In this document: piece after piece, positions 10,623 through 59,422 of the stretch | Numbering within the stretch: the stretch's first letter is position 1 | Layout: every line of letters starts with the position of its first letter | Source of the DNA: Paludibacteraceae bacterium | Lineage (GTDB): Bacteria; Bacteroidota; Bacteroidia; Bacteroidales; Paludibacteraceae | NCBI GenBank assembly: GCA_905233935.1 | Contig: CAJOFU010000001.1 | Span: 1-64,000 of the forward strand | Reading direction: 5' to 3' | DNA: 64,000 nt | Notes under the pieces: generated by a model | What the model was told of the DNA's origin: nothing | Seen by the model: the letters and a program-made list of their open reading frames with translations, nothing else | Database searches by the model: none | Position numbers and translations under genes: made by a program

Positions 10623-10653
10623 CAAAGGTACAACATTTTTATGATATTTGCAA
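10623..10653 (-). promoter_or_regulatory. Bacteroidota promoter for feoB
   Basis: Minus strand: TTG (10651-10653), 20 nt, TACCTTTG (10623-10630). The start site would be near 10617, just upstream of the heptamer array. Confidence 0.78.
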
Positions 10654-10753
10654 TAGCTATTTGTGGGGATTTTTGGGCTATAAATGTGAAGTCGAACCAA
10701 AATCACGGGATATATACATAGTATATATAGGTAGTGGTGGGATACGATGAACC

Positions 10754-10907
10754 CCCGATAAGCCTCCGACACGCTCCCGATAAGCCTTCATGTTGTCTTA
10801 TCCTGAAAATAGGTTTGTCTTATTGTGAAATAGGTTTACTCATAAAAAGAAACAAAAATATGCTATTTGTTGCGGATTAGTATGCTATTTATCACAGATT
10901 AGGGGGA
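10754..10907. repeat. 22-bp periodic tandem array, 7 units
   Basis: Seven consecutive 22-bp units. Units 1-2 share CCCGATAAGCCT, units 3-4 share TTAT..TGAAA..TAGGTTT, and units 6-7 share TATTT...GATTAG, while unit 5 is diverged. The period is exact but the sequence changes along the array. There is no spacer between units, so it is not a CRISPR. Confidence 0.8.
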
Positions 10908-10932: not shown

Positions 10933-10964
10933 TTTGCAAATATGGATTTTTTTTCGTATTTTTG
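10933..10964 (+). promoter_or_regulatory. Bacteroidota promoter for the GHL10-like gene
   Basis: TTTG (10933-10936), 20 nt, TATTTTTG (10957-10964), about 30 nt before the chosen ATG. Confidence 0.8.
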
Positions 10965-30611: not shown

Positions 30612-32656
30612 TAATGCATGCGGTTGCCTAAGAACTTGCATATCTCGCGTTTGACGGATTGCAGTTCACTAAGTTGCCCGAGCAGTTGCAGAGACTGATC
30701 CGTATCGCCTGATTCCATCTGTTTCTTGACTGCGGCTATGCGTTCATTGATCAGACTGAGTTTGAGTTCGCACAGCAGTTGCGGCACGAGTTCATTAAGC
30801 AGATCTTGCTCCGAACGCTGCTCAACGTCTTGTACCACATTCTCGGATATAGCGACCTTGTAGAAAATGGATGACAGCTGATAGCGGTCGGCAATCAAAT
30901 CACAGGCAAGAGCATTGATCTCTTGATCCGGATGGAACTTAAAGAATGTTTCCGCCACGAACCCATCGGCATTTTGGTGGGCACGAAACTCCTCAAAAAT
31001 GCGTTTGTCAACAGGCAGAGGTATATCCACTCCATCGGCATCGAGTTGTTGCAACAGATAATTACCTACAGATACAGTCTGTCCGTTCGGGAAACGGAAG
31101 AATGGTCGTTCGCCATAACGCACGAGCAGTTGTGTCAGGTTGCGAATATTCTGATCCACCTTCGACATTCGTCCGATAATAGCCCGATCTTCCCGTACGT
31201 TTTCACTCTTTTCTGTCGGGGTATCGGTTGACGTCGGTTTAGAGGTGAGTATGCCTTCGCGCTCTTTTTCGCGGCGTTGGGCGTTATACGATTCCGTAGC
31301 GTTCTTGCGTCGTTCGAGGCGTTGTTGCTCAACTGCACGAGTAAGCACCTCGGCAGAGGTCTGGAGTAGTTCGGCGCAATCGCGGATATATTCGTAACGG
31401 GTAATCTCATCGGGGATAAGAGAGATAGACTCCACGAGATCGTGCGTCAGTTCGGAGCGTTTGGAAGGGTCAGATTTGACCTGTTCCCAACTAAACTGCG
31501 CCTTAAAACGGATAAAGTCCTGCTGGTGGGTGCGGATATACTCCATAAACTCCGATGCATCGTGGCTGCGGGCGTAGGAGTCGGGGTCTTCGCCATCGGG
31601 CAGGAGTACGACCTTAACGAAGAATCCCTCACTAAGGAACATATCTATACCGCGTATAGCAGCATGAATACCGGCTGCATCGCCGTCGTAGAGGACAGTG
31701 ATGTTCGTAGTGAAACGTTTGATGAGGCGTACCTGCGGTTGCGTGAGGGCTGTTCCACCGGAAGCAACGACGTTTTCGATACCTGCCTGATGCATGGAGA
31801 GGGCATCCATCTGTCCCTCAACAAGGTAACAGAGGTTGGTCTTCGCGATGGATTGTTTGGCTTGGAAAAGTCCGTACAGTTCGTTGGTCTTGGAGTAGAT
31901 AGTCGAACCGGGCGAGTTGACGTACTTGCCCATTGGGATTTCCTTGCCGTCCTTGTCGTATTTCTTGCGCAGGATTCGTCCGGCGAAAGCAACCGTCTTG
32001 CCTGAGGGAGTGAAGATAGGGAATATGACGCGGTCACGGAAACGGTCGTAGGCTTCCCCTTTTTCGTTCTTACCGCAGACACCTGTACCGATGAGGGTGT
32101 CAACATCGTTAGTCAGGTACTTGTCGATATATCCGGCTTTGTGTGCAGCATCGGTCAGAGCATTGCCTTTGTTGGGCGAGTAACCCAAGCCGAACTTGCG
32201 GATGGTTGTGTCCTGCATCCCGCGCTCACGGAAATACTTAAGACCAATGGTTTGTCCCTCCTCAGTGTTCCACAGTTGGTCTTGAAACCACTTGTTTGCC
32301 CACTCATTGACCGCGTACATTGCTTCGCGGTCATCCTGATGCTGTTGCTCTTCGGGAGTCAGTTCGCGTTCCTCTATCTCGATGTGGTACTTCTTGGCGA
32401 GTGTACGCAGAGCGTCGGCGTAGGAGCAGTTGTCAATCTTCATGACGAACCCAACGGCATTTCCGCTCTCGCCGCAACCGAAGCATTTGAATATGCCTTT
32501 ACTCGGTGACACCGTGAACGAGCCTGTTCGCTCCGAGTGGAACGGACAAAGCCCGATGAGGTTCGCACCGCGTCGTTTGAGCGGAACGTAATCCTGTACC
32601 ACCTCTTCAATCTTGGCGGCACTAAAGATCTTGTCTATGGTCTGCGGAGGTATCAT
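30611..32656 (-). CDS. dnaG: DNA primase
   Basis: Replicative primase, 681 aa. N-terminal CHC2 zinc finger (CPFHSE...CFGCGESG), a catalytic core with a Toprim domain (YLVEGQMDALSM and LYDGDAAGIHAAIRGI with the acidic metal ligands), and a C-terminal helicase-interacting helical domain. Full length. It lies between the outer-membrane barrel gene and manA. Heptamer arrays flank it on both sides. Confidence 0.95.
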   Translation of the reverse strand: MIPPQTIDKIFSAAKIEEVVQDYVPLKRRGANLIGLCPFHSERTGSFTVSPSKGIFKCFGCGESGNAVGFVMKIDNCSYADALRTLAKKYHIEIEERELTPEEQQHQDDREAMYAVNEWANKWFQDQLWNTEEGQTIGLKYFRERGMQDTTIRKFGLGYSPNKGNALTDAAHKAGYIDKYLTNDVDTLIGTGVCGKNEKGEAYDRFRDRVIFPIFTPSGKTVAFAGRILRKKYDKDGKEIPMGKYVNSPGSTIYSKTNELYGLFQAKQSIAKTNLCYLVEGQMDALSMHQAGIENVVASGGTALTQPQVRLIKRFTTNITVLYDGDAAGIHAAIRGIDMFLSEGFFVKVVLLPDGEDPDSYARSHDASEFMEYIRTHQQDFIRFKAQFSWEQVKSDPSKRSELTHDLVESISLIPDEITRYEYIRDCAELLQTSAEVLTRAVEQQRLERRKNATESYNAQRREKEREGILTSKPTSTDTPTEKSENVREDRAIIGRMSKVDQNIRNLTQLLVRYGERPFFRFPNGQTVSVGNYLLQQLDADGVDIPLPVDKRIFEEFRAHQNADGFVAETFFKFHPDQEINALACDLIADRYQLSSIFYKVAISENVVQDVEQRSEQDLLNELVPQLLCELKLSLINERIAAVKKQMESGDTDQSLQLLGQLSELQSVKREICKFLGNRMH

Positions 32657-37566: not shown

Positions 37567-38580
37567 TTACGAATGATATATTGTGTATAATTTTGAACCA
37601 TCAACCTCTTCGTACGTGTCCGGCAGTTTCATGTCGGGTGCGGGCACTCCCTCGCCGATGGTGACGGGTGCTACTTCGATGTGCATCTCATCCCAGATGT
37701 CTGTTTCCAGGATGTGTTTGAGTAGGGTTGTACCGCCTTCAACCATTACGGAGTGGATATTACGCTGAGCGAGGTCGCTGAGGATGAACGACCACTCGGT
37801 ACACTCGTCATATACGATGGTTGGCGCGTCGTCGGAGAAGATCTTGGCGTCCTTCGGGATGCGGTGATGACGGTCGAGGACTATGCGCACGGGATTACGT
37901 CCAGACCAGCGGGTCGTCAGCAGCGAGGGGTTATCCAGTAGTGCGGTGCGTGTGCCGACCATGATCGCCATATTCTCGGCACGCATCTTATGAACAAGTT
38001 GCTTGGTTACGGGTGTAGAAATAACCAGTGGCGTACCATCCTTGCGGATCAAGTCCACGAACCCATCCGCCGTTTGTGCCCATTTGAGGATAACGTACGG
38101 ACGATGTTTCTCGTGCAGGCAGAGAAACCGTTTGTTCAGTTCGCGACAAGCTTGCTCCTCTACACCTACTGTCACTTCTATACCTGCATCACGGAGTTTC
38201 TGCACACCTCGTCCGGCTACTTGCGGGTTGGGGTCAAGGCAACCGATCACCACCCGCTTAACACCTTTGCTAATGATCAGGTCGGCGCATGGCGGTGTCT
38301 TACCGTAGTGCGAACAAGGCTCTAATGATACATATAGTGTGAATCCGCCATACATGGCGGATATTGCATCTTCCGATAGTCCCGCCATCTTCTGATCCGC
38401 TGCGTGGAAACACTCCACCTCGGCGTGACCCTCACCATAACGATGATGCCACCCTTCGGCGAAAATAGTGTCATCGGCAGGATTGACCAACAAGGCACCC
38501 ACCATCGGATTAGGGGGAACATAATACTCGCCATTACGCGCCAACTCAACGCATCGCAATATATAATCTGAATCTGTCAT
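37567..38580 (-). CDS. ribD: Riboflavin biosynthesis deaminase/reductase RibD
   Basis: Bifunctional enzyme of 337 aa from ATG 38580; the track start at 38655 overlaps the prmC promoter and gives a non-family extension. The deaminase domain has GEGHAEVECFH (zinc His, catalytic Glu) and LEPCSHYGKTPPCADL (zinc Cys); the reductase domain has ILKWAQTADGF and SVMVEGGTTLLKHIL. Between the HAE and PCxxxxxxPPC motifs the protein has about a dozen extra residues (SEDAISAMYGGF). These are encoded by a 20-bp palindrome of the N4 family, an apparent in-frame insertion. Confidence 0.93.
   Translation of the reverse strand: MTDSDYILRCVELARNGEYYVPPNPMVGALLVNPADDTIFAEGWHHRYGEGHAEVECFHAADQKMAGLSEDAISAMYGGFTLYVSLEPCSHYGKTPPCADLIISKGVKRVVIGCLDPNPQVAGRGVQKLRDAGIEVTVGVEEQACRELNKRFLCLHEKHRPYVILKWAQTADGFVDLIRKDGTPLVISTPVTKQLVHKMRAENMAIMVGTRTALLDNPSLLTTRWSGRNPVRIVLDRHHRIPKDAKIFSDDAPTIVYDECTEWSFILSDLAQRNIHSVMVEGGTTLLKHILETDIWDEMHIEVAPVTIGEGVPAPDMKLPDTYEEVDGSKLYTIYHS
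38343..38362. repeat. N4-centred palindrome (family member 4) inside ribD
   Basis: ATCCGCCA-TACA-TGGCGGAT, perfect arms, in frame inside the deaminase domain. Confidence 0.88.
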
Positions 38581-38590
38581 AGCATTTTTA

Positions 38591-38622
38591 TTTGCAAATG
38601 TCAAATATTTTTTGTATCTTTG
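38591..38622 (+). promoter_or_regulatory. Promoter for prmC-recX-recO
   Basis: TTTG (38591-38594), 20 nt, TATCTTTG (38615-38622). The box ends only 4 nt before the ATG, implying a nearly leaderless mRNA. Confidence 0.82.
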
Positions 38623-38626
38623 CAGC

Positions 38627-39466
38627 ATGAAAGCAATAGTGGAACATATTGTCACGCAACTGACGCCCTGTTACGGCGAGCACGAGGCACGTGAACTGGC
38701 ATATTGGATCATTGAGGAAACAACCGGAATGAACCGTTTTGACCTGTGCACGCACAAAGGTACAAAAAATATACCAGATTTGGAAATAATTTTGAAAAAA
38801 TTATGTAAATTTGTTCCTGTGCAGTATATTTTCGGTCATACAGAGTGGTTAGGCTTGGATTTGGATGTAAACGAAGCCACCCTTATTCCCCGACCCGAAA
38901 CGGCAGAATTGGTTGAGGCAATCAGCAATCAGCAGTCAGCAATCAGCTGTCAGCGATCAGCAATCAGCAATCAGCAATCAGCAGTCAGAGTGTTGGATGT
39001 GGGGACGGGAAGCGGGTGTATTGCTTTGGCACTCAAAAAGAAACACCCTGAGTGGATTGTTGAAGGGCTGGACAAAAGCGAAGAAGCTATTGCAGTCGCT
39101 AAACGCAATGCTGCGAAACTGGGATTAGACGTGCGGTTCTTTGTGGAGAATATACTCAGCGACGAGATCGGCGAATATGACCTCATTGTGTCTAACCCGC
39201 CGTATATCCGACCGTCGGAAAGAGGGACAATGACAGAGAACACTTTGCTTCACGAACCCAAAGAAGCATTGTTTGTGCCGGAAGACGATCCCCTACTCTT
39301 CTATCGGCGCATAGCGCAGTTACATAAAGCAAAAGAACTGTGGTTCGAGATCAGCGAGACACAAGGCGATGCAATGCTTGAACTGATGCATCAAACGGAC
39401 TACGAGGCTGAATGCCTCAACGATATGTACGGCAAACAACGATTCATTCATGCAATACAAAAGTGA
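38627..39466 (+). CDS. prmC: Release factor glutamine methyltransferase
   Basis: PrmC/HemK, 279 aa, methylates the GGQ glutamine of release factors. ATG 38627 is chosen; the upstream TTG lies inside the promoter. Motifs: PVQYIFGHTEWLGLDLDVNEATLIPRPETAELVE, LDVGTGSGCIALALKKKHP (SAM motif I) and LIVSNPPYIRPSE (NPPY). Between the RPET segment and SAM motif I lies an insert, AISNQQSAISCQRSAISNQQSAVR, made of ten heptamers. Its 21-bp period gives a perfect heptapeptide repeat. The gene overlaps recX by 17 bp. Confidence 0.93.
   Translation: MKAIVEHIVTQLTPCYGEHEARELAYWIIEETTGMNRFDLCTHKGTKNIPDLEIILKKLCKFVPVQYIFGHTEWLGLDLDVNEATLIPRPETAELVEAISNQQSAISCQRSAISNQQSAVRVLDVGTGSGCIALALKKKHPEWIVEGLDKSEEAIAVAKRNAAKLGLDVRFFVENILSDEIGEYDLIVSNPPYIRPSERGTMTENTLLHEPKEALFVPEDDPLLFYRRIAQLHKAKELWFEISETQGDAMLELMHQTDYEAECLNDMYGKQRFIHAIQK
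38918..38987. repeat. Heptamer array inside prmC, 10 units
   Basis: GCAATCA, GCAATCA, GCAGTCA, GCAATCA, GCTGTCA, GCGATCA, then three GCAATCA and GCAGTCA. At 70 bp it is the longest and most regular array of the window. Confidence 0.95.
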
Positions 39467-40528: not shown

Positions 40529-40594
40529 TCCCGTTAAGCCCATGTTTCCCCCTTAATAGTCACGTAATGGTATCGCTTTTTTGTCGAGACAATC

Positions 40595-40649
40595 TTTAGT
40601 TCTTCTTTAGTTGTTCTTTAGTTCTTATTTAGTTCTTCTTTGGTTCTTC
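40595..40649. repeat. 11-bp tandem repeat, 5 units
   Basis: TTTAGTTCTTC with minor changes, five times, in the convergent gap after recO. Confidence 0.9.
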
Positions 40650-58684: not shown

Positions 58685-59398
58685 ATGAGAAATTTACCTA
58701 TTGTTACAAAGAATTTATTGCTTGCTAACGTCATTGTCTGGCTGTTGGATTCGCTTCTGGAGCGATATAACGTGCATTTGGTAGAGTGGTTCGGACTGAT
58801 GAACTGGTCGTTTTCGTCATTTGGTAACGGTTACGGTTCATTTCACTTGTGGCAGTTGTTCACATATATGTTCATGCACGCTAATTTCTCTCACCTGTTC
58901 TGCAATATGTTTGCCGTACTAATGTTCGGGCCTGCACTGGAGCGTGAATGGGGTGAGCGGAAGTTCCTCTTGTACTACCTTGTATGCGGCGTGGGTGCTG
59001 CGCTTGTACAGGAGCTCGTATGGATGGCATTTATGCCGGGTCAACTATCCGTCACTATAGGTGCCAGCGGCGCAGTGTTCGGTATCCTATTCGCATTCGG
59101 TTGGCTATTTCCCGATGTCCCATTATTCCTATTCTTTATACCCGTTCCTATACGCGCGCGAATATTCGTGATTGCTTACGCGGTGATTGAGTTGTTTGCC
59201 GGATTAGCAAACTTCTCGGGCGACAACGTGGCACACTTCGCTCACCTTGGCGGGATGCTCTTCGGCTGGCTGCTGATATTGTGCTGGCAGAAAGGATGGT
59301 TTGAGGGGAAATGGAAAGACAAGATACACCTTGCTTCCGACCGACGCGAGAAGGGTGAACGGGACTTTTCCGGCTATCATTATCACAAATCAGAATAG
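58685..59398 (+). CDS. Rhomboid family intramembrane serine protease
   Basis: 237-aa rhomboid with six membrane helices: WQLFTYMFMHANFSHLFCNMFAVLMFG (L1 and helix 2), catalytic Ser in TIGASGAVFGILFAFG and catalytic His in NVAHFAHLGGMLFGWLL. Substrates are unknown. The last codons (YHYHKSE) fall in a 22-bp duplication that also contains the start of the next gene. Confidence 0.9.
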   Translation: MRNLPIVTKNLLLANVIVWLLDSLLERYNVHLVEWFGLMNWSFSSFGNGYGSFHLWQLFTYMFMHANFSHLFCNMFAVLMFGPALEREWGERKFLLYYLVCGVGAALVQELVWMAFMPGQLSVTIGASGAVFGILFAFGWLFPDVPLFLFFIPVPIRARIFVIAYAVIELFAGLANFSGDNVAHFAHLGGMLFGWLLILCWQKGWFEGKWKDKIHLASDRREKGERDFSGYHYHKSE

Positions 59399-59422
59399 TC
59401 ATTACCACGAATCAGAATACCA
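59379..59422. repeat. 22-bp direct duplication at the rhomboid-psuK junction
   Basis: ATTATCACAAATCAGAATA and ATTACCACGAATCAGAATA start 22 bp apart. They span the rhomboid stop and the psuK ATG. Confidence 0.8.

Follow-up and report, generated by a model that had tools for sequence, protein, structure and literature searches.

A 22-bp periodic array between feoB and a hydrolase gene is the 3' tail of a short repeat dispersed in a genus of Paludibacteraceae

Introduction

Why does a non-coding stretch between two divergent genes hold a 22-bp step over seven units while its sequence drifts from one end to the other? The question arises at positions 10754-10907 of a 64,000-nucleotide stretch of contig CAJOFU010000001.1 from a Paludibacteraceae bacterium, the whole of which is called the window here. 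An earlier note on this DNA described the locus as one array that could present repeated protein sites on one face of the DNA, and placed it between two divergent promoters. The observation holds in part, and it matters for a different reason: what was seen forms the 3' tail of a short repeat, itself non-coding, that is dispersed in one Paludibacteraceae genus of rumen bacteria.

Results

The periodicity itself is real. Identity at lag 22 across 10754-10907 reaches z = 5.9, which none of 2000 dinucleotide shuffles equalled at any lag from 6 to 45, and units 3-7 alone (10795-10907) reach z = 5.0, again with 0/2000 shuffles. The pairwise likeness of units described in the earlier note is borne out, units 1-2, 3-4 and 6-7 sharing 14 of 22 bases each. 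The remaining neighbours share 6 (units 2-3), 10 (4-5) and 7 (5-6) of 22 bases and non-adjacent units 2-9. We rejected the proposed single array of seven units because only the three adjacent pairs are alike, the locus being composed of three unlike two-copy pairs. Tandem Repeats Finder reports the second and the third of these:

10793..10837, + strand: second pair, local 22-bp two-copy repeat (units 3-4), score 69
10859..10902, + strand: third pair, local 22-bp two-copy repeat (units 6-7), score 60

The second and third pairs are 22-bp duplications local to this locus. Units 3-7 lack the CGA motif of the element described below, are private to the locus, returned no further match in the genome search and are missing from the orthologous locus of the nearest relative, G001. 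The first pair (units 1-2), by its sequence, consists of 11-bp units of a dispersed element starting upstream of 10754; it belongs to a tail of 11-bp units, and the 22 bp are therefore 2 x 11. Since 22 is twice 11, units 3-7 may be two-step duplications made by the same tail-building process, or they may be ordinary slippage products.

The earlier note had also reported the 22-bp period at 59379-59422. A two-copy 22-bp repeat is present there (59377-59419), but it bears no core and was not matched by the array in the genome search; it covers the end of ORF 58685-59398, rhomboid-like as we read its sequence, and reaches into the gap that precedes the next gene. The note had staked its reading on further periodic tracts in the genome and on the period being kept in close strains. 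The outcome is split: the nearest relative, G001, lacks units 3-7 but keeps the 11-bp part with different units, and other tracts of 11 and 22 bp are common.

When the array and its flanks were searched against the genome, the first pair and the sequence immediately 5' of it matched a repeat family within the same genome. In an alignment of 13 of its copies, a conserved core leads into steps of 11 bp that start with CGA. At the locus the element is composed of:

10699..10744, + strand: core of the dispersed element (AAAATCACGGGATA ... GGTGGGATA), 46 bp, with BLAST copies elsewhere in the same genome
10710..10728, + strand: AT-rich perfect inverted repeat ATATATAC-ATA-GTATATAT, a putative hairpin or cruciform
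10745..10788, + strand: tail of four 11-bp units CGATGAACCCC CGATAAGCCTC CGACACGCTCC CGATAAGCCTT, directly 3' of the core and containing 22-bp units 1-2

All 115 deduplicated cores have a perfect inverted repeat in their AT stretch, with arms of 7 (one core), 8 (73), 9 (29), 10 (11) or 11 bp (one). Core length varies between 44 and 52 bases, as cut in our script, and the bases outside the hairpin total 26 in 112/115. A stem of varying length between fixed flanks suggests that the repeat acts as a hairpin or cruciform rather than as a spaced double-stranded site. The argument is one of geometry and not of energy: the single-strand folding energy of the window copy is no better than that of shuffles (z -0.33), and the RNA consensus fold of the aligned copies is weak (RNAalifold -2.6). 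A second core in this genome (GGTGGGATTAAAGTCTAGGATT...) bears the same kind of tail. Core variants of three further genomes (G154, G047, G149) have a right half of GTATACC or GTGTACC before GGGATACG or AGGATACG, possibly a second palindrome. At L049:1559-1586 an 11-bp array lies to the left of a core copy, the side normally having none.

A two-part pattern finds the core in 57 of 151 genomes of the genus, with 0 for the reversed control, and BLAST in 12 of 41 genomes, all of this same genus, with 0/16 from other genera. Scanning the whole collection with the core pattern gave 91 stretches, and among the matches listed (80) all are labelled Paludibacteraceae or (uncultured) Bacteroidales. An origin from phages, plasmids or viruses was rejected, no match being found in phages or plasmids, nor in viral contigs with one exact pattern. 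A full-text literature search, the coverage of which leaves out preprints and most subscription journals, returned no description of this element, which looks like a little-explored kind of bacterial repeat.

We analysed the tails on 111-114 tails taken from 115 deduplicated cores (131 occurrences), near-identical orthologs still being included and L093, L121 and L123, which the regular expression missed, being left out. Across the first 44 post-core bases of 111 tails identity is 0.539 at lag 11, 0.485 at lag 22 and 0.400 at lag 33, compared to 0.215-0.262 at the remaining lags between 4 and 32, and lags 10 and 12 do not stand out. For the window tail we ran the shuffles on 10751-10794, six bases off the final placement at 10745-10788. 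Within the tail, 10755-10783 fits the genome-wide pattern CCGAYAA-N4 with one mismatch. Information per unit falls with distance from the core (10.0, 5.9, 4.3, 2.0 and 0.7 bits). Units 2 and 3 match at 6.4 of 11 positions within one element compared to 4.3 between elements, and they are alike at 8/11 or better in 36 of 111 tails with 4.2 expected; neighbouring units matching better within than between elements, the tails are therefore re-copied locally.

The wording of the tails also differs by genome. With pairs alike at 20/22 or better dropped, tail units of different elements agree at 11.25 of 22 positions within a genome and at 8.66 between genomes, and the maximum among 300 shuffles of the genome labels is 9.31. 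Such dialects read CGAcAaCGG.T in this genome, GGA.ATAacTA in CACXPH and CGaCTCGa.CT in CAJOEJ. Between G000 and G001, CGA positions changed in 2/81 cases compared to 27/189 at seven other unit positions (Fisher p 0.0025), in a small sample of 27 hand-picked units from 7 orthologous arrays with CGA picked because it is the consensus; the Y position (3/27 changed) was set aside. The slower change of CGA fits a recognition of each unit. The idea of repeated protein sites on one face of the DNA thus survives, but with a unit of 11 bp, i.e. one turn, and as part of a genus-wide dispersed element.

The 11-bp step extends beyond the cores. In about 1.0 Mb of non-redundant sequence we counted 42 non-coding lag-11 segments away from the core, compared to 17, 5 and 3 for lags 10, 12 and 13. 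In this genome, 58 places carry three CCGAYAA motifs spaced by 11 bp, the reversed control giving 2; by our own count the sites fall in about 30 separate arrays, several of them in frame inside genes and many ending in GCGTACGTTTT. Exact CGTACGTTTT sites are directly preceded by at least two units in 16/19 cases in this genome and 6/11 in G001, and this end motif is at about control level in five other genomes tested. Two further 11-bp arrays lie in the window:

31160..31203, + strand: second array of the same 11-mers with a CGTACGTTTT end, in frame in dnaG (30614-32656, - strand)
40593..40649, + strand: intergenic 11-bp array of TCTTTAGTTCT x 5, no core

An array related to the latter occurs at another place in the same genome (L026). 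A further type, ATCCGATGAGC ACCCGATGAGC followed by CACCGAGGAAA-like units, was seen at three genome places (L267, L271, L272). Open frames running through arrays encode an O-methyltransferase, a DHH-family protein, a pterin-binding enzyme, a class I tRNA synthetase, DnaG, a GH9 enzyme with CelD_N and a carboxypeptidase-regulatory-like protein. The window also holds many 7-bp arrays, among them ten GCAATCA heptamers at 38918-38988 inside open frame 38567-39463, the protein of which matches small methyltransferase families and is, in our own reading, presumably PrmC/HemK-like. Heptamer and 11-mer arrays may share an origin.

Close relatives differ by whole units, as minisatellites/VNTRs do. The tails of the near-identical orthologs L163 and L181 differ by one 11-bp unit, and the DHH-family gene has nine units in G000 compared to three in G001, i.e. 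66 bp, six units or 22 codons, a difference that represents growth or loss of the array and not an empty site of the core element. G001 also has the O-methyltransferase array, G007 has another repeat in its place, and the shorter L278 of G049 lacks it. The DnaG array is present in G000 and, with substitutions, in G001, and lies in a linker that is different in G007 and shorter in G049. At the feoB locus G001, which is about 90% identical in the aligned feoB part, has the same core, and its tail differs and contains one unit of 10 bp, an exception to the 11-bp step; no alignment is obtained on the hydrolase side, so that the neighbourhood has changed as well. Two copies within one genome (L018/L019) have alike tails and unrelated flanks, which indicates mobility.

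As the earlier note had stated, the array lies between divergent feoB and hydrolase genes, the FeoB gene being on the - strand and the hydrolase, of type GHL10, on the + strand. By the Bacteroidetes consensus, 10623..10653 (- strand; TACCTTTG with TTG upstream) and 10933..10964 (+ strand; TTTG ... TATTTTTG) are the likely feoB and hydrolase promoters. A special link to either gene did not hold up, with copies lying in every orientation and even inside genes. Relative to the flanking ORFs we counted 28 copies as -|-, 22 as -|+, 18 as +|+ and 10 as +|- among the 78 of 115 that have two flanking ORFs and no overlapping frame. This lack of a useful orientation bias speaks against a terminator as well as a dedicated operator. 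The neighbouring genes contain no recurrent transposase, and a recurrent neighbour as mobiliser was not found; BspA-like leucine-rich genes do recur near a subset, the largest protein cluster comprising 12 loci. A subfamily of the element is placed just upstream of such leucine-rich repeat or related genes (L091, L099, L100, L109, L192, L198, L204), BspA-like being a name we assign from sequence. Searching the window for Rfam families gave only a tRNA at gathering scores.

Discussion

The copies with unrelated flanks, the hairpin geometry of the core, the 11-bp step, the whole-unit differences, the slow change of CGA and the dialects support a model according to which the repeat would be a non-autonomous mobile element, moved in trans by an enzyme and bearing a hairpin core and an 11-bp tail that is read by a protein and gains or loses whole units, its spread making the dialects; we give this model an even chance. 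A sequence-specific protein, perhaps the mobilising enzyme itself, would grip the core as a hairpin and bind the units of the tail in head-to-tail order, so that every helical turn presents one unit with its conserved CGA block and a variable spacer. The binding requirement would preserve the step of 11 bp even as the wording drifts and local re-copying goes on; expansion of the tail would result in locus-specific units, and spread within a genome in genome-specific dialects. A mobilising or binding protein was found neither among the neighbours nor among Y1 transposases in carrier genomes, and for the core element we saw neither a target-site duplication nor a clean empty site. Much of the homogeneity of the tails could come from local slippage alone, and part of the dialects from common descent of the copies.

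Carried further, slippage would make the element a neutral minisatellite, i.e. an old dispersed core with a tail made by replication slippage in steps of 11 bp, which later doubled to 22, and read by no protein. We consider this a serious though rather unlikely alternative: the whole-unit length changes between relatives, the local homogeneity and the abundance of core-less arrays, likewise seen for heptamers in the window, are all expected from it, but lags 10 and 12 show no excess although the units have strongly diverged, CGA evolves more slowly than other positions, and the same 11-mers reappear behind different cores and ends. A more far-reaching scenario, which we regard as improbable, is a dedicated enzyme recognising an anchor, either the hairpin core or the CGTACGTTTT end, and adding 11-base units, the wording of which would be set in each genome by a template of its own or by a co-evolving binding protein.

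A regulatory operator array for feoB and the hydrolase, for example of an OmpR/PhoB-type regulator with 7-bp sites and 4-bp spacers, would suit the location between divergent genes, and PMC4832192 describes PhoP sites as 7-bp direct repeats with 4-bp spacers, which gives the same 11-bp step. However, we rejected a Feo-specific operator as the main reading because of the mixed orientation, the copies inside coding genes and the loss of units 3-7 in G001. The motif wording also varies from genome to genome, and we hold such an operator array to be very improbable. At the RNA level, the hairpin followed by units with pyrimidine-rich ends could be a site of Rho loading or processing, in which C residues recur at regular intervals 3' of a hairpin. 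Copies do not favour positions 3' of a gene in the sense direction, the left ORF being on the + strand in 28/78, and the window has no Rfam match except a tRNA; with no orientation bias and no terminator-like site the Rho-loading/terminator reading was rejected, and we hold an RNA-level element to be very improbable too.

As a rule, the short repeats of bacteria are fixed palindromes. In the present element, a conserved core bears a tail with a nearly exact one-turn step and a wording that differs by locus and genome, and arrays of the same 11-mers run in frame through normally essential genes, dnaG among them. Should a protein read the tail, as in the mobile-element model, a DNA-binding specificity and its sites would be co-evolving in dozens of sister species, and the sequence alone would reveal it. 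Should an enzyme write it, repeats would be made in a way that is new, by a telomerase-like or array-building process at scattered sites of the chromosome, essential genes included. In either reading, proteins of this genus contain inserts derived from a repeat.

Comparison with known systems suggests several partial likenesses. REP elements, as described in PMC3733652, are short dispersed palindrome-bearing repeats without an ORF that also occur inside genes, all of which applies to the element reported here. In contrast to REPs, no fixed GTAG tag stands beside the hairpin in our aligned copies, and the available text of PMC3733652 describes no tandem 11-bp tail. REP/RAYT membership was rejected because the Y1 transposase (PF01797) is lacking, scoring over the cut-off in 0/6 element-rich genomes compared to 4/13 genomes in which the element was not detected. 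Rickettsia palindromic elements are, according to PMC10969869, in-frame repeats inside unrelated protein genes, and our arrays run in frame through protein genes as well; the Rickettsia elements are palindromes of ~150 bp, whereas we see stepped 11-bp arrays, often CGTACGTTTT-ended, with unit numbers varying between relatives. The 7 + 4 bp spacing of OmpR/PhoB-type sites (PMC4832192) gives an 11-bp step as well; here, the wording depends on the genome and the locus, some sites are intragenic and no regulator was identified. Like MITEs, the element is small, non-autonomous, multi-copy and apparently mobile; unlike MITEs, it shows, by eye, no terminal inverted repeats in the aligned copies, the left and right ends being unrelated and the right end being the variable tail. 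Pneumococcal BOX elements and minisatellites combine core modules with a module in variable repeat number. A core plus a variably repeated module is found here too, the unit differing in its length of 11 bp, in being specific to locus and genome and in keeping its phase almost without exception. In summary, we see a palindromic repeat, short and dispersed, whose tandem tail varies; by the features tested, it is neither REP/RAYT nor MITE.
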